The notes under the pieces: generated by a model | What the model saw: the letters and a program-made list of their open reading frames with translations, nothing else | Database searches by the model: none | Told to the model about the DNA's origin: nothing | Position numbers and translations under genes: made by a program | Part shown: positions 9,001-17,105 of the stretch, piece by piece | How positions within the stretch are numbered: the first letter of the stretch is position 1 | How the letters are laid out: each line of letters opens with the position of its first letter | IMG/VR virus record: IMGVR_UViG_3300028844_000265 | Span: 1-22,648 of that record | Reading direction: 5' to 3' (one strand) | Length of the DNA: 22,648 nt | Source of the DNA: a virus

Positions 9001-9372
9001 GCAGCTAGGGATATTATGGGAAATTTAGTTGAAGATGAACTATTTGCACTTATAAATAGTCCTAGATACAGAAAGTTAGATTCTGATGCTGAAAAATTAA
9101 ACATGATAAAAGGATCAACATCAGATGATGAATATGCTGGTATAACTGCATTAAAAACAAAAGCAAGACAACAAGTTATGAACCCAGAGAACTACAAAAC
9201 TGATGCTGAAAAACAACTAGTACTAAGAAGAATGTATTTAAATCTTTCAACAGCTAGAAAAAATTTACTAGAACAAAGATGGAAAAAATCATCTAGATAT
9301 AATGGACGTTCTATTACAGAGTCACAAAGCTGGTCAGAAGGTTTAGCTCTTGATCAAGGAAATGTTAATTAA
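6019..9372 (+). CDS. Large internal virion / DNA-ejection protein (probable)
   Basis: This is an 1117-residue protein, comparable in size and position to T7 gp16. The N-terminus (about residues 20-75) is a helical domain with FLMKREGYRPDQL and a RDLDYVKN segment, of a type seen at the start of large phage internal proteins. Residues 107-135, 153-171 and 189-209 are Gly/Ala-rich hydrophobic stretches that could insert into membrane during DNA entry. The rest is mainly helical and charged. I see no Glu-Ser transglycosylase motif such as T7 gp16 has near its N-terminus, so any cell-wall activity would lie elsewhere. It is the last gene of the + strand operon, followed by a terminator. The start has only a weak ribosome binding site, 8 bases after the previous stop. 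Confidence 0.6.
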   Translation: MTKVYNKYKELNKDVLLKEDDFIEDASEFLMKREGYRPDQLKSRESVYDAFMEHFRVQNVNEITALRDLDYVKNRTNDEQKAQLGRLMDTYDSMDSDFGFKAAQDYVGGVLSAPSTIGGLFSGGVTKLGAVAANQGTKLGIKGVINQSLKNKALLATVAADAAVAGGTVAAQEETRVETGIKEEISLKNIGLATGLGVVASGGLTGFSAYKKGVRELEADEILEQTNKVLKEKTETAHKNATKKVYDNTSTKKLAEQFEDLLITSKESKLPLKKTIPDELDLGKRLRKELKEEGKAYSLDAKEVQNISAAASKIYSTIGDKIKVDPTIAPLERFSSKLTRALMYSTETEGALPLNQLKNILEEHSITMEQLGPLYAAEISEAAAKLGAVGRMSQVINKVGGGKTTKYLQFKATLEALDEKTADIGSVTGEARRTIDEKISEDGVSARLRNAAYNLSRASVGLMTIQLATTIRNTTNGYLRNQFYAFDNLGAGLIYGAKGNLEKLKNPTSKMLKDEANESVRKSIAYLKTSKDSFLNKDLIFNITSAETLALFKALQDPAFGQSEKISKLIRGMGDIADITGQEKGLLGATRFLNKLNTYSDNMFKRAYFARELNKSLGSNPIKVGDVTVDSIDAAFKTGNLKSIPDQYYADAMEEAFEGTYQTGSFHAGRKGIFNTFARGFIELGQTPLGATFVPFPKYLVNQFRFIYEHTPVLGLVNAGGILNKPGTEFGLTKLDPEQFAKTMTGLVGLTTFMALRANYGDENTKWYEYKNPLNPSETFDARAALGPFSMYAWTADVLYKLNPFDWHNNDKVAKGIGGSVDLEEAVKALGGGTIRAGSGLDLIEGIFDVISGDTGYAPGEAKLNVQETLARYVGNTLSRPLVGAGMFKDVLVHVNPEYAQLPDNSDVNVWEAMFKQAGRSLPFVGKVEEGGRVALGSPTRRGGRSRVFPILKQVTGFTPMERRTVIEDELSRLNLDFRDLSPRRIKLDKPATNAARDIMGNLVEDELFALINSPRYRKLDSDAEKLNMIKGSTSDDEYAGITALKTKARQQVMNPENYKTDAEKQLVLRRMYLNLSTARKNLLEQRWKKSSRYNGRSITESQSWSEGLALDQGNVN

Positions 9373-9406
9373 TTATTACTATACTTATGACCGTAGTGTA
9401 ACAAAT

Positions 9407-9437
9407 AAAAAGGGGGCAACTAAGCCCCCAATTTTTT
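9407..9437. terminator. Bidirectional intrinsic terminator between convergent arms
   Basis: A perfect 6-bp GC stem lies at 9412-9417 (GGGGGC) and 9424-9429 (GCCCCC), with a 6-base loop AACTAA. On the + strand it is followed by AATTTTTT. On the - strand the hairpin is followed by TTTTTATTT. Both strands therefore have the stem plus U-tract of a rho-independent terminator, which fits its place between the convergent virion and replication operons. The - strand mazG stop (9436-9438) touches the hairpin's T-tract. Confidence 0.9.
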
Positions 9438-9765
9438 ACCTATCATCTCCACTTCCCCCTATTTTATTCTCACTCATCCTCTTATGTAGCTTGGCTTGAT
9501 TGAGACCTGCTATTGTACCAAGAGATAAATTAAGATCTGTTGCCAATGCAGCACAGTACCATAGTACATCTCCTATCTCACTAGCAATATCATCTCTCCA
9601 ATTATCCGGCATATTATTTACACCATCCCTCATTAACTTCTTTACTTTATTGGCTACTTCTCCTGCCTCTCCTGCAAGCCCAAGTGCAGGGTAGGATATC
9701 TTATACTTATCATCGTAGATAGCTGTCTTTGCTGATGACCTTTGATACGAATTAAAGTCTGACAT
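9436..9765 (-). CDS. mazG: MazG-type nucleotide pyrophosphohydrolase
   Basis: This enzyme hydrolyses NTPs or dNTPs to the monophosphate and pyrophosphate. In phages it may trim the nucleotide pool or (p)ppGpp, though the true substrate is often unknown. With the start at 9765 the protein has 109 residues. The metal-binding motif is plain: LAGEAGEV gives E33 and E36, and EIGDVLWY gives E63 and D66 (ExxE...ExxD). A longer frame opens at an ATG at 9816, but the ATG at 9765 has AAGGAG 9 bases upstream and overlaps the previous gene by only 14 bases, so it is the better start. It is the last gene of the - strand operon and sits in a nucleotide-metabolism group with the ribonucleotide reductase and the dATP/dGTP diphosphohydrolase-like protein. 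Confidence 0.9.
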   Translation of the reverse strand: MSDFNSYQRSSAKTAIYDDKYKISYPALGLAGEAGEVANKVKKLMRDGVNNMPDNWRDDIASEIGDVLWYCAALATDLNLSLGTIAGLNQAKLHKRMSENKIGGSGDDR

Positions 9766-10015
9766 TTTGTACTTCTCCTTTAGCCAATTCTGGGCTTCTG
9801 TTTCTAGTTTGTTCATGCTTAGTAACTCTCTTTAAGTTCTCACTGAAGGCTTTGTTAAAGCCTCTATCCCACTCTCTAAACTGCATAGTATCCATATGAA
9901 AGGGGTTGTTTATTCTACCCCTCTTGAAATCATCATAGCCTCTCTGAAATTGAACCTTCAGTGGGGCATCATATTTTCCAAGACCTCTTTCTTTACGTGT
10001 TAACATTCTCTGCAT
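9752..10015 (-). CDS. Ribosome modulation factor-like small protein
   Basis: This is an 87-residue basic protein with a strong AAGGAG site 6 bases before the ATG. Residues 24-56 carry a pattern resembling ribosome modulation factor (RMF) and the related CrpP family: QRGYDDFKRG (RGY at 25-27, G33), then NPF (37-39), then W49, G52 and A56. E. coli RMF, which dimerises 70S ribosomes in stationary phase, has RGY..G..G, a Pro-Tyr region and W..GW..A in the same order. Here the core is followed by a 30-residue charged tail not found in E. coli RMF. Similar short proteins occur in phages, but no role has been proven as far as I know. Ribosome or nucleic-acid binding is inference from the motif alone. 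The similarity is to be treated as a candidate. Confidence 0.6.
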   Translation of the reverse strand: MQRMLTRKERGLGKYDAPLKVQFQRGYDDFKRGRINNPFHMDTMQFREWDRGFNKAFSENLKRVTKHEQTRNRSPELAKGEVQNVRL

Positions 10016-10018
10016 GTA

Positions 10019-10207
10019 CTACTCCTTTGGATTGAGTTTAAGTTTTAATTCATCTGTCTTAGTATTTTGTATAGCCTGTACACATTGTGACATGTGATTG
10101 AGTATCTTTAACGAATTATTACCAGTAGAGAGTGTTCTTACTACACCCATAATGTCTTCATTCTTTTCGTCTATTTCATACTCTTTATCTTCTACAGTAA
10201 TCTTCAT
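10019..10207 (-). CDS. Small hypothetical protein
   Basis: This is a 62-residue acidic protein with an AAGGAG site 5 bases before its ATG. The N-terminal beta-like stretch MKITVEDKEYEIDE followed by an amphipathic helix resembles small phage proteins with a hairpin-then-helix layout (DUF6447-like), but the match is weak. Its ATG overlaps the stop of the upstream gene (ATGA, 10204-10207), so translation is coupled. No function can be assigned. Confidence 0.6.
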   Translation of the reverse strand: MKITVEDKEYEIDEKNEDIMGVVRTLSTGNNSLKILNHMSQCVQAIQNTKTDELKLKLNPKE

Positions 10208-10479
10208 GTTATCTCCTTCTCTAATTGTTTTTCTAGGTTAGCCATAGCTCTCCAAGCTACCTGCGCCCAGTCTTCTTCTAGTAAGTGACGCATCATTGCG
10301 TCTAGTTCATCCTTAGACTTTGTCCTATCCCAGAATAAAGTCTCCGGTGTCTGCCCATGTTGTAAACCACCAACATAAGATATCTTTGCTACTTCTGCAA
10401 TAGCTCTAGGAAAGTATTTAATAAATCCTGTGTATACAGGTATTGCTTTTCTTTCCTTACTGTCCGTTGGTAATACCAT
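10204..10479 (-). CDS. dATP/dGTP diphosphohydrolase-like protein (DUF5664 type)
   Basis: This is a 91-residue protein. Residues 8-70 carry the family's features in order: KERKAIPVYTGFIKYFPRAI, VAKISYVGGLQHG, FWDRTKSKDELDAMMRHLLE. These match the N-terminal domain described for phage dATP/dGTP diphosphohydrolases, a MazG-fold-related group (assignment from memory of the motif). Such enzymes remove purine dNTPs as monophosphates and are known from phages that change their DNA bases, but no purZ-type gene is present in this window. The start has GGAG about 7 bases upstream, in the short gap after the ribonucleotide reductase stop. It lies between the reductase and mazG, pointing to pool control. 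Confidence 0.65.
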   Translation of the reverse strand: MVLPTDSKERKAIPVYTGFIKYFPRAIAEVAKISYVGGLQHGQTPETLFWDRTKSKDELDAMMRHLLEEDWAQVAWRAMANLEKQLEKEIT

Positions 10480-10489
10480 GATGATCTCC

Positions 10490-12397
10490 TTATGTCAAGT
10501 CTACTATTTCACACACATCTCCTGAACAGGCTAACGTCTGCATTGCTACTGTATTATCTTCTTCCTCATAACTGGACAGTAATGACCAGTCAATGTTCTT
10601 TGGAAGTTTCTTTGATAATGCATCATATTCTTTCTTAGTGCAATCCTGATATGGTGCTTGTTGATAACTATGATCAGAGTGTGGTAAAAATGACACACCT
10701 GACATCTCATCAAAATGTTTATATACAAACGCACCAACTTCCATCCACTCTGCATCACGCACTGTGATAGTAACAGATGGTTTATGTTCACACCAATGTC
10801 TTTGATACATCAGCCACATCTCTAGCTGTTGAATGGCAGTCATATCATTCCTAGTTACAGCACCTTTGGGTGAGGCAATAGGAAAACTAAACACAGTTGT
10901 AGTGTCAGGTTTCATTACACATAGTTCTGCAGGTACACCCTGATCAATCATAAACTGTGTAAGTGGATCTTTGTTGTCACCTCTTACAGTTCTGACGTAG
11001 TGATGACTATGCCTTGCATGTATTCCACTAGCACTATCTACTAATTGTGATACAGTACCAGATGGTTTTACACAAGTGACAGCAGTAGATTGTTGTATAT
11101 CTAATCTTTCAGCCCATTCTTTATTTGTCTTGACTGCAACCAACCTGAGATGATTGAGTGTCTGCTCAAGACCTTTGTTCTTACTAGTCATCATAGCATT
11201 ATCCATGATACCTGTAAGTGACACACCAAGTAGACGTTCTTCTTCTGTGTTATTCTGCCACACCTTACGTAAGTATGGAAACTTTGTAAACTTAGATTGT
11301 ATAGTACCCAAGATGGTGGCAAGTTCTACTTTCTTAGATAGACTCTTAATATCATCTGTTGCTCGTACAACTATCTCTGTAAGATTACAGAATTGGTATG
11401 GTCGTAAGATTATCTCAGAACAAGGGTTGCAAGCAAACTCCCAGTCAGCATCTCGTCTACCATTCCTAGCTGCTTGTTTCTGTGCAGCCTGTCTGTTAAA
11501 GATACCACGCTCACCTGACTTAGATTCTACAAGTGCTGTCCACTCACGTAAGAATGTCTCCATGTCGGGCTTCTCTGTATAGCACACACTGTTATTTGAC
11601 AACGCTCTATGAGGGGCAGCTTCCCACCAGTTACCTGACTTAGCATGTCTCATACGATCATCAGATAGATTAGATAGACTGATCATAGCTGACCTACGTA
11701 CACCACCAACAACAACTATCTCACCTATCTTACACATAATGTCGTGACACTCTATGCTTGATAGCTTACGAGTCTGTGCTGTCTTAAATGTACCAACCAC
11801 AAACATAAACAAATCTATCAATGGTGCAGGGCCAGATGCTCTACCACCAAATGTTTTTAGTTTAGCTCCTGCAGGTCTAACTAATGACACATCCCACTTG
11901 GGTATCTCACCTGCCCATAGTAATGCAAGCAGTTGACGTAGTGCTTTAGCCCAACCTTCTTTACTATCCTTGACCACTATAGTTGTATCACTATTATACA
12001 GTGGTGGTATCTCTGGTAGCTTAGATATGTATTGTCGTTCAACACTAAACCCAACACCTGTACCACAAAGGAGTATAAACATAGCTTCATCAAAGCTCTT
12101 GGGGTCATCTACAGGTAGGTAGCTACAATTGTACCCTGCTGTATTATCTCTGTCTAGTGCAGGGCCAGCAGTCATCATAGCTCTCATAGACGGCATCACA
12201 GCTAGACTAGCAATAGCATCGTATAGATCATTACGTATTTTAGTGTCTAGGTTATACCCTATTTTATCAGCCATGTAATCTACATACCTGCTTACAGTCT
12301 CTCCCCAGTTCTCTCTTCTTTTGTCTTTGTCCAACCATCTTGCGTAACGAGATGTATGTATAAACGCTTGATAATCTGTTGGTAAATAATTACTCAT
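10490..12397 (-). CDS. rtpR: Adenosylcobalamin-dependent ribonucleoside-triphosphate reductase (class II, monomeric)
   Basis: This enzyme reduces ribonucleoside triphosphates to dNTPs with a B12-derived radical. The 635-residue protein shows all five expected cysteines in the Lactobacillus leichmannii RTPR arrangement. C326 in CNPCSEI (N324, C326, E328) is the thiyl-radical site. C91 (NCSYLP) and C337 (FCNLTE, 11 residues after C326) are the reducible pair. C624 and C629 at the C-terminus (ACSGDVC) form the swinging pair. The spacing of 5 between the last two and of 11 between C326 and C337 equals that of the Lactobacillus enzyme. It is about 100 residues shorter than that enzyme. Such B12-dependent reductases are common in phages of B12-using marine bacteria. 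The start has CGGAG upstream and lies 4 bases past the stop of a 52-codon gene. It should supply dNTPs for replication, with the neighbouring mazG-type genes. Confidence 0.95.
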   Translation of the reverse strand: MSNYLPTDYQAFIHTSRYARWLDKDKRRENWGETVSRYVDYMADKIGYNLDTKIRNDLYDAIASLAVMPSMRAMMTAGPALDRDNTAGYNCSYLPVDDPKSFDEAMFILLCGTGVGFSVERQYISKLPEIPPLYNSDTTIVVKDSKEGWAKALRQLLALLWAGEIPKWDVSLVRPAGAKLKTFGGRASGPAPLIDLFMFVVGTFKTAQTRKLSSIECHDIMCKIGEIVVVGGVRRSAMISLSNLSDDRMRHAKSGNWWEAAPHRALSNNSVCYTEKPDMETFLREWTALVESKSGERGIFNRQAAQKQAARNGRRDADWEFACNPCSEIILRPYQFCNLTEIVVRATDDIKSLSKKVELATILGTIQSKFTKFPYLRKVWQNNTEEERLLGVSLTGIMDNAMMTSKNKGLEQTLNHLRLVAVKTNKEWAERLDIQQSTAVTCVKPSGTVSQLVDSASGIHARHSHHYVRTVRGDNKDPLTQFMIDQGVPAELCVMKPDTTTVFSFPIASPKGAVTRNDMTAIQQLEMWLMYQRHWCEHKPSVTITVRDAEWMEVGAFVYKHFDEMSGVSFLPHSDHSYQQAPYQDCTKKEYDALSKKLPKNIDWSLLSSYEEEDNTVAMQTLACSGDVCEIVDLT

Positions 12398-15050: not shown

Positions 15051-15079
15051 GTTATATCATGCCACATCTTTTGTGTCAA
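15051..15079 (-). promoter_or_regulatory. Near-consensus sigma70 promoter inside the DNA polymerase 3' end
   Basis: On the - strand, TTGACA (15079-15074) is followed by 17 bases and TATAAC (15056-15051), preceded by TG for an extended -10 (TGATATAAC). This is a full -35, ideal spacing and a 5/6 -10. The -35 lies in the last codons of the polymerase gene, and the expected start of transcription is about 15044, some 25 bases before the next ATG (15017). It should give separate expression of the ssDNA-binding-like, exonuclease and endonuclease genes. Confidence 0.85.
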
Positions 15080-17105
15080 GCCAATTATCTCCAATCTTTG
15101 CCTCTAATAATAAAGGTACATTAAAGTCTATATTCCATTTAGTATTTACTATGTTAATTAGATTATTATTCGTTGCTTTTACTATTCGTATTACCTTATC
15201 TACTTCATTGGGATGTACATCAATAACTATACTGTCGTGTACTGTATTTACTATACAACTTTCCATCTTATTTGCTTCTAGTAACTTATCTATGTATATC
15301 AGAGATATGGGTACAATGTCAGCAGTTGCAAAGGATTGAACAGGATAATTCTTTATCTGTGTGAAATATGTCACACTTCCATTCCGTCTACGCTGTACAT
15401 CGGGCCATGTAAACTCTCTACCAGATGGTGTTTTTATTTTACCAGTAGTAAGTATCTCATTAGCTAATCTCTTATGCCACTCTGATATACCTTTGTACTT
15501 AGTAGTAAACTGTTGATAATAGGACGCTTCTGCTTCTGTCCTACCAAATCCACTTGCACCATACAAGGGAGCAAATGTATGTGCCTTTGCATCTTGTCGT
15601 GATATCTTCTGCCCTGCATCACTGATAACTTTAGCTGTGTAACTGTGTACATCAAATCCTGTTGACACTTCTTGTATAGCTATCTTATCCTGACTAAGGA
15701 ATGCAGCAACTCTAAACTCTAACTGTGCAAAATCTGCCTCAAGTATTTTACCACCTTCCCATCGTGACACAAACACTTTCTTTACAGGAAACGTCTGACC
15801 ACGTGGCATGTTCTGCATGTTAGGGTTAGCTCCAGACAACCTGCCTGTACCTGTCCTGTGCTGTAGTAACTGAACGTGTAGCATACCATCTGATTTAATG
15901 TGTGTAGATATACCATCAACAAAGCTAGATAAATATGTGTCTAGTGCTGATAATCTTCTAACCCGTTGCAAAAATACAACAGCAGTCTTAAAATCTCTTT
16001 CTCTAGCATTGGTCTCTAGCTTTATAAGGTTGTCTTTACTGGTACTAAATCCGTGTGCGCTTACCCAATCGGGGTTAGGTGCAGCAAACTTTAGACCTGC
16101 TATAGTATCTGTATTAGTAAAGAGATACCCTTCTGACTTACATTCTAAGCACTTACTTGTTTTAACAAATGGTGTACCATTCTTCTTAGTTCTACGTACC
16201 TTACCTGTACCCCTACATGTAGTACACTGTCGTGCCTTTTGTTTGTATAATACAACAGAGTTCTGCTTAGTAATAGATCTAAACTCAGATGGTGTTAGCC
16301 TTGAACTAAATGAGTTAGCCCACATAGGTTTGTCATTAGGTTTTCTACTGTAGATAATCCAAGACAACTGCTCTGGACTATTAAGATTAATAGGTCTGTC
16401 ACCCATTAGCTCATGCACCTGCAACTGTAACTTAGCTAACAACTCTTGCTTCTCAGCTTCAAACTCTTTACGTACTTCTTCAAGTGCTTCTTGATTAACA
16501 TTAAAACCCTTCTGATAGATACGTGCAAGATGTATGCATATTTGATTGGTTAGTTTTACGGTATCCACTAAGCCTGTATCGTGTGTGTTAAGCTGATCAT
16601 TTATCTTATCATACAACTCCATAGTAGCATGTAAGTCAGCAGATAAGTATTGTGACAACTCCTCATGTGGTATCTCTCTGGTCGTATATCCTCTGTTGAA
16701 GTAATCCTTTAGTGTACCCATCTTCTGTGTATCACAGTTGTATCTTTCTGCTAAGTACTCCAGACTCAATGGTTCTTTCTGTCCTCGTTGGATTATATAA
16801 GCACCAAGCATAGTATCAAAGATCTCTCCAGTATAGGTAAAGCCAGATTCCCATAACCATGTTAAATCGTGTATGGCATTTTGCATCACCAAGAGGTGGG
16901 TATCATCCAGAATGTTCTGGACAATACTTCCACCCTCAGTAGTAGGTTGTTGCTCACTATGATCAAATGTAACTATCTTTTCTCCAGAGTGATTTAACAT
17001 TCCTACCATTGTCAATGAATTTTCAGATTCAAAAGGATCAAGCATAAGTTTATTGTTACGTTTAATAGTAGTATTCTCTACATCTAAAACTGTTACAACA
17101 TTCAT
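15057..17105 (-). CDS. polA: Family A DNA polymerase with central DnaJ-like zinc finger
   Basis: This is the replicative phage DNA polymerase, 682 residues. The 3'-5' exonuclease domain has D8/E10 (LDVEN), D80 (NAIHDLTW) and Y153/D157 (YLSADLHA). The polymerase domain has HRTGTGRLSGANPNMQN (416-432), motif A ADFAQLEFRV (D458, E463), motif B R503-K507-F511-Y515 and motif C VHDSI (H623, D624). Between the two domains lies a zinc-finger insertion at residues 294-327 (CTTCRGTG and KCLECKSEGY; C294, C297, C319, C322), similar to the DnaJ central domain. Such an insertion was reported for phage HMO-2011. The residue at the position of E. coli Pol I 762 is Phe (F511). The start is coupled to a 51-codon gene by ATGA. 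Confidence 0.95.
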   Translation of the reverse strand: MNVVTVLDVENTTIKRNNKLMLDPFESENSLTMVGMLNHSGEKIVTFDHSEQQPTTEGGSIVQNILDDTHLLVMQNAIHDLTWLWESGFTYTGEIFDTMLGAYIIQRGQKEPLSLEYLAERYNCDTQKMGTLKDYFNRGYTTREIPHEELSQYLSADLHATMELYDKINDQLNTHDTGLVDTVKLTNQICIHLARIYQKGFNVNQEALEEVRKEFEAEKQELLAKLQLQVHELMGDRPINLNSPEQLSWIIYSRKPNDKPMWANSFSSRLTPSEFRSITKQNSVVLYKQKARQCTTCRGTGKVRRTKKNGTPFVKTSKCLECKSEGYLFTNTDTIAGLKFAAPNPDWVSAHGFSTSKDNLIKLETNARERDFKTAVVFLQRVRRLSALDTYLSSFVDGISTHIKSDGMLHVQLLQHRTGTGRLSGANPNMQNMPRGQTFPVKKVFVSRWEGGKILEADFAQLEFRVAAFLSQDKIAIQEVSTGFDVHSYTAKVISDAGQKISRQDAKAHTFAPLYGASGFGRTEAEASYYQQFTTKYKGISEWHKRLANEILTTGKIKTPSGREFTWPDVQRRRNGSVTYFTQIKNYPVQSFATADIVPISLIYIDKLLEANKMESCIVNTVHDSIVIDVHPNEVDKVIRIVKATNNNLINIVNTKWNIDFNVPLLLEAKIGDNWLDTKDVA

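Follow-up and report, generated by a model that had tools for sequence, protein, structure and literature searches.

A small basic protein with a predicted Rmf/CrpP-type fold in the ribonucleotide reductase operon of HMO-2011-type marine phages

Does a short minus-strand open reading frame in the ribonucleotide reductase (RNR) operon of a marine phage encode a ribosome modulation factor (RMF), the bacterial protein by which ribosomes are sent into hibernation, and what could such a protein do during infection? The window analysed here, meaning the whole stretch of DNA, is a virus record of 22,648 bases. A preliminary description of it had taken the ORF product to be RMF-like or, failing that, CrpP-like, with an extra basic tail and possible effects on the translation of the host.

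The gene, its phage and its operon

The following features are needed for the argument:
9412–9429, no strand assigned: bidirectional terminator-like hairpin, closing the operon, with a convergent operon beyond it
9436–9816, minus strand: mazG pyrophosphohydrolase gene (long start), overlapping the tail of the RMF-fold gene by 65 bases
9752–10015, minus strand: RMF-fold protein gene, 87 aa (ORF, conservation, fold model and pN/pS)
9755–9817, minus strand: C-terminal tail, residues 67–87, overlapping mazG and under selection in the mazG frame, not its own
9775–9779, minus strand: AGGAG within the tail, separated by 9 nt from the internal mazG ATG at 9765 (MSDF start); it reads K-G-E in the tail frame
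9845–9961, minus strand: Rmf/CrpP-like core, residues 19–57 (helix 19–32, NPF loop, beginning of helix 44–71)
9962–10015, minus strand: basic N-terminal segment, residues 1–18 (RKERGLGKYDAP), conserved in the GLGK lineage, pN/pS 0.29
10019–10207, minus strand: 62-aa ORF with no family match, upstream of the RMF-fold gene
10022–10026, minus strand: Shine-Dalgarno sequence AGGAG of the RMF-fold gene, within the 3' end of the preceding ORF
10204–10479, minus strand: 91-aa ORF (phrog_27780) with a sub-threshold dATP/dGTP diphosphohydrolase N-terminal domain
10490–12397, minus strand: class II (B12-dependent) ribonucleotide reductase, upstream of the RMF-fold gene

The ORF had been placed exactly by the preliminary description: it occupies 9752–10015 on the minus strand (stop codon included), encodes 87 residues and starts with the ATG at 10015, which is preceded by AAAGGAG, the AGGAG lying 6 nt before the startcodon. 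The motif chain RGY / NPF / W..GF..A on which that description rested is also present and goes beyond chance, as in 50 diverse relatives G26, F30, E48, W49, R51 and G52 are invariant and L19, G33 and A56 nearly so. Comparison of all pairs of 73 distinct GLGK-lineage sequences, pairs which are not independent, gave own-frame pN/pS values of 0.29 for residues 2–18, 0.24 for residues 19–57 and 0.35 for residues 58–66, and the core (residues 19–57) is thus under purifying selection. The ORF is a genuine gene, and the marine phage that carries it is of the HMO-2011 type; the assignment to this phage type follows from the family A DNA polymerase encoded at 15057–17105 (PF00476 and PF00684), which carries the DnaJ-type insert described as the hallmark of HMO-2011-type phages (PMC9038755), and which is 64–71% identical to the polymerases of HMO-2011, CRP-1 and CRP-345.

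Using tblastn, relatives of the protein were found in the Roseobacter phages CRP-1 (66%) and CRP-345 (62%) and in Puniceispirillum phage HMO-2011 (44%), where they are listed as hypothetical proteins, and more weakly in CRP-212, CRP-3, CRP-235 and ctYwJ313, where the gene is partly or wholly unannotated. Profile A2, made from 50 relatives, detected the gene in 6 of 11 distinct cultured phages with a full-length polymerase (12 records) and did not find it in CRP-603, CRP-2, CRP-207, HTVC033P and CRP-738, in agreement with profile A5 of the short (CRP-3-type) lineage; CRP-603 nevertheless has an annotated RNR. A profile scan of IMG/VR gave at least 565 relatives among the 599 pattern matches listed, and the gene was also present on five MAG contigs, which are probably phage contigs, while a search of the plasmid collection with the CRP-3-type protein gave no match. 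In HMO-2011, as in most close relatives (the RRNGL lineage, e.g. L042 4001–4240), the interhelix loop carries an insertion of variable sequence of about 10 residues and there is no NPF turn.

Along the minus strand, endonuclease I is followed by two small ORFs, the class II RNR, the 91-aa ORF, the 62-aa ORF, the RMF-fold gene, mazG and the hairpin, and with RNR upstream and MazG downstream the earlier wording of a nucleotide-metabolism operon was apt. Across relatives, in 175/175 loci, covering all three lineages, the RNR is upstream and no more than 2.5 kb away, and MazG is directly downstream in 125/127 loci of the two lineages GLGK and RRNGL and in 0/28 of the short lineage, counts taken from 188 loci in total, with loci having too little flank excluded for each count, and overstating independence since many of the loci are near-duplicates. 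In 22 of the 28 short-lineage loci a conserved protein of about 140 aa and of unknown function replaces MazG (e.g. L045 3134–3562), often beginning inside the RMF-fold ORF. The 91-aa ORF matched PF18909 at 5.7e-5, below threshold, and may be a second nucleotide-pool gene near mazG. The hairpin at 9412–9429 has a perfect 6-bp G/C stem with T runs on both sides and lies between the two convergent operons, and a promoter scan of 9300–10600 gave one weak match, fewer than in shuffled sequences.

With regard to the tail, residues 67–87 overlap mazG by 65 bases (stop codon counted), and for residues 67–79 pN/pS is 2.07 in the own frame versus 0.39 in the mazG frame; the 73 sequences were picked for a GEV-like tail end, which biases residues 80–82, so that we rely on 67–79 only. 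The tail consensus K-G-E-V-Q-[HNY]-V is mostly encoded by the codons GGA, GAA, GTA and xAT-GTC, and relatives with Val as second mazG codon have xAT-GGT instead, changing V to G in the tail. This consensus agrees with an AGGAG located nine bases ahead of an ATG of the other frame, so mazG, through its coding and its start signal, shapes the tail, and what had been described as an extra basic tail is largely dictated by the overlapping gene; its role as a functional RNA-binding extension was considered and rejected on the same pN/pS values. The bases 9752–9816 are used at once by the tail, by the MazG N-terminus and by an internal Shine-Dalgarno sequence, and there are two candidate mazG starts: the long form, from 9816, is favoured by the selection seen in the mazG frame, and the short form, from 9765, by the AGGAG 9 nt upstream. 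In the short lineage, which lacks mazG at this position, the tails have mostly different ends among the sequences listed.

Resemblance to RMF in sequence profiles and fold models

The window protein on its own has no RMF match in Pfam, PHROGs or NCBIfam, and the similarity to RMF emerges from the family as a whole. PF04957 (RMF) was the commonest Pfam family, matched by 25/50 members at E≤1, followed by P63C with 10, and the best member examined singly (L198) reached 2.6e-5 and 24.7 bits, against a cut-off of 27.9; all member scores viewed singly were below the Pfam RMF cut-off, none of the 12 phage records searched gave a match above it, and none of 10 shuffled members matched RMF. In NCBIfam, the top three families by member count were Rmf_CrpP_fam (NF041886; 14 of the 50 members, best E 0.00093, below the curated cut-off), Rmf_like_phage (NF041887; 3) and the RMF equivalog (2). 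CrpP_fam (NF033696) and the CrpP-related family NF041856 were not among the eight families matched by the 50 members at E≤1, a search in which the HMMER filters drop weak hits. Hence neither the window protein nor its best relative reaches the curated cut-offs for RMF (PF04957, NF011162), and those of NF041886 and NF041887 are likewise not reached, the window protein being without a match, although the signature of the latter two families (G...G...P-aromatic...W..G-aromatic) is present.

Profile A1 (15 relatives) placed two RMF sequences first among 177,635 PDB sequences (E 0.0055 and 0.0078), whereas profile A2 ranked the mTOR FRB domain (0.023) above RMF (0.11), and profile A5 found no RMF in either the PDB sequences or four gammaproteobacterial records. 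In the E. coli and Klebsiella records rmf was the sole match of profile A2, while it was missed in those of Proteus and Aeromonas (2/4 records). Profile-profile comparison of A1 and A2 with four RMFs gave P-values of 0.0007 and 0.0024 and probabilities of 26% and 12%, with a shallow RMF alignment. BLAST of E. coli RMF against the phages gave no match, and direct BLAST thus misses the link between RMF and the phage proteins, but profile A2 does match the phage Rmf-like proteins of Ep020 (5e-10), a Yersinia phage (3e-6) and KaOmega (4e-5).

The AlphaFold2 model of the window protein, made with 50 sequences, has helices at 19–32 and 44–71, with pLDDT values of 92–95 over residues 21–60 (in 10-residue blocks) and low values at both ends (20 residues at the N-terminus, 17 at the C-terminus). 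In a Foldseek search of the PDB, E. coli RMF (9iot) and Vibrio RMF (2jrm) ranked first and second with probabilities of 0.85 and 0.69, all others being at 0.12 or lower, albeit with poor E-values of 2.4 and 3.1 (0.55–3.1 across both models), and VIA-align gave Z-scores of 6.1, 5.9 and 5.4 for three RMF entries and 2.3 for the next unrelated row. A second model, built for the short lineage from 14 sequences with L183 as the lead, again had RMF at ranks 1 and 2 (probabilities 0.93 and 0.80), with Z-scores of 6.8 and 6.4 followed by human C5a (5.2) and a spliceosome segment (4.8). Taken by itself, a Z-score of 6–7 is not a strong one for a two-helix protein. Both models have the two-helix RMF fold, and going by them the protein very probably has the Rmf/CrpP fold.

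The resemblance to RMF proposed in the preliminary description therefore holds at the level of family profiles and predicted fold, but not for the single window sequence. Of the checks it had suggested, the profile search was empty for the window protein and below cut-off throughout for the family, and the structure comparison with E. coli RMF returned RMF as the top two PDB matches for both models; a lack of profile similarity combined with an unlike fold, which was to count against the idea, was found in neither part for the family.

Scaffold and contact surface

Mutagenesis of E. coli RMF is reported to show that ribosome binding requires G16, C29, W40 and W44, and dimer formation R3, K5, R11, G23, P30, G43 and R45 (PMC8126665); according to the same paper, citing Beckert 2018, R3 and K5 contact h28 and R45 contacts C1536 of the anti-Shine-Dalgarno sequence. 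Residues were mapped from RMF to the phage proteins by profile and profile-profile alignments. The scaffold positions are conserved, or aromatic for aromatic: equivalents of G16, W40 and G43 are present in 50/50, G23 in 48/50 and P30 in 40/50, and the W44 equivalent is F, Y or W in 50/50. This does not extend to the contact positions, as the R45 equivalent is basic in 0/123 distinct proteins (N in 96, D in 25, S in 2), the C29 equivalent is N or S in 43/50, and the basic residues R3, K5 and R11 are not at the equivalent N-terminal positions. Conversely, an Arg or Lys directly precedes the EW pair in 122/123 and R51 is present in 50/50, so the basic face differs from that of RMF. Judged from these alignments, the scaffold is that of RMF and the contact surface is not, which makes the product a protein of the Rmf/CrpP fold but no genuine RMF.

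The net charge is positive in 118 of the 123 distinct members, the pI is above 8 in 118 (mean 9.9), and the lowest charge among the five non-positive members is that of L178 of the short lineage (−2). E. coli RMF has a charge of +7 and a pI of 10.9. Among the other phage proteins of the Rmf fold that were compared, charges are negative or close to zero (Ep020 −6, Saruman −14, RHph −4, KaOmega −1, Yen8 −1, Milano +1), which sets the strongly basic window protein apart from them.

Known relatives and candidate functions

Compared with RMF (PF04957; NF011162; E. coli rmf), the phage protein shares the two-helix fold, the order and spacing of G-Y...G...P-[FY]...W..G-[FW]..A, the high basicity and the core size. 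Besides the contact residues, it differs in the conserved RGLGKYDAP leader, the longer second helix, one extra residue between P and W, and its location in a phage RNR operon. The families NF041886 and NF041887 (Milano gp60, Caulobacter phage CcrBL9) also comprise small phage-borne proteins with the same signature, and the P-to-W spacing of 11 in Ep020 equals that of the window protein, which has long N- and C-terminal parts in addition to its scores below both cut-offs. Pseudomonas aeruginosa BatR (PA3049) shares the RMF fold and has more C-terminal helix than E. coli RMF, but is reported to retain a clear sequence relation with RMF (about 49% similarity, PMC13411936), whereas the phage protein keeps only fold and signature. 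CrpP of pUM505 and ICEs belongs to the fold family by NCBIfam naming, but CrpP_fam had no match among the 50 members, and drug modification is unsupported for the phage protein. Of the earlier interpretation, the RMF/CrpP-type fold and signature thus stand, the CrpP side being the weaker of the two, and the tail as an extra does not.

Phage proteins with an RMF fold are already known as annotations, namely NF041887 (Rmf_like_phage), Milano gp60 ('ribosome modulation factor domain superfamily protein') and CcrBL9 ('Ribosome modulation factor' in BFVD). What appears to be new is a basic, RNR-linked RMF-fold family in HMO-2011-type phages, hypothetical or unannotated in the records compared; 'ribosom' and 'RMF' are absent from the main texts of two papers on these phages (PMC9038755, PMC6918029), and our literature search found no paper joining ribosome modulation factor with HMO-2011, with phage and CrpP, or with CrpP alone.

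Our favoured explanation, which we hold tentatively, is that a small basic protein, with its two helices predicted to pack via G26, G33, W49, G52 and F53, would be produced from the RNR operon of HMO-2011-type phages and would most likely attach to the ribosomes of the host, either at the 16S 3' end or platform or close by, via its basic N-terminal segment and R47/R51, where it may tune or damp initiation or shield ribosomes during infection. The analysis itself shows that the ORF is coding and gives its predicted fold, conservation, charge and operon setting; that the protein binds ribosomes, and with what effect, is inferred. Ribosome or rRNA binding is plausible since 118/123 members are basic, but by our estimate slightly less likely than not; by fold and charge, the modelled protein could occupy the ribosomal region of RMF. 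For E. coli RMF, the described binding site lies upstream of the anti-Shine-Dalgarno sequence, close to the 3' end of the 16S rRNA, and a block of Shine-Dalgarno pairing is the proposed mode of inhibition (PMC6177447). The phage's own genes at this locus have clear Shine-Dalgarno sequences, and as a full block would hurt these, partial, timed or protective action is favoured. Because the R45 equivalent is never basic, no R45 contact is expected and classical 100S dimers would most likely not be driven, their formation being very unlikely. Against the favoured explanation stand the scores below cut-off, the loss of R45, C29, R3, K5 and R11, and the absence of the gene from 5/11 phages.

The less likely but serious competitor is reuse of the RMF scaffold for a non-ribosomal host protein or RNA, e.g. 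as an inhibitor or anti-defence factor. This would account for the retention of scaffold but not ribosome-contact residues and for the highly conserved, lineage-specific N-terminal segment RGLGKYDAPLK, which is absent from RMF, and other phage Rmf-fold proteins show by their charges that the fold serves different surfaces. It has a precedent in BatR, which is much closer to RMF and is described as not serving hibernation (PMC13411936), by analogy with which an RMF relative may not do so either; the consistent basicity of the RNR-linked family, on the other hand, is unlike those other phage proteins and fits rRNA. The constant company of RNR, and of MazG in two lineages, could point to a partner or regulator of these enzymes, but we consider this improbable, as MazG is missing from the short lineage, five HMO-2011-type phages lack the gene (CRP-603 despite its RNR), the locus counts are redundant and the fold points elsewhere.

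Two further explanations differ in how literally the RMF resemblance is taken. Chance convergence, in which an ordinary two-helix hairpin carrying W and G would have no relation to RMF, would explain the sub-threshold scores and the rank of the mTOR FRB domain with profile A2, as small helical hairpins match readily, yet it is quite unlikely given that RMF came first in both model searches, clear of unrelated rows in the first, that shuffled members did not match RMF, and that profile A2 reaches the Rmf-like proteins of other phages. At the other extreme, a true RMF forming 90S/100S dimers together with the host hibernation-promoting factor would agree with the fold and scaffold, but is the least probable of all: R45 and C29, both needed in E. 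coli (PMC8126665), are not kept. The known hosts of the relatives, marine Rhodobacteraceae and Puniceispirillum, both alphaproteobacterial, also speak against it. In the account given in PMC6177447, bacteria outside the gammaproteobacteria lack RMF and use long HPF.

The analysis provides a name and a fold for a gene that the records of cultured phages carry as hypothetical, and an RMF-fold phage protein without the key ribosome-pairing contact residue may act on host ribosomes in a different way. More speculatively, and with a rather low likelihood, marine phages may supply their own RMF-scaffold ribosome-platform factor to alphaproteobacterial hosts lacking a gamma-type RMF, seizing or preserving ribosomes independently of host ppGpp control via contacts other than R45 with the anti-Shine-Dalgarno sequence, the gene sharing an operon with those for the phage's nucleotide enzymes. 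HMO-2011-type phages are reported to be dominant and broadly distributed in the ocean (PMC9038755), and should a factor acting on ribosomes be common among them, this would offer a concrete and testable handle on how phages control the translation of slow-growing marine hosts.
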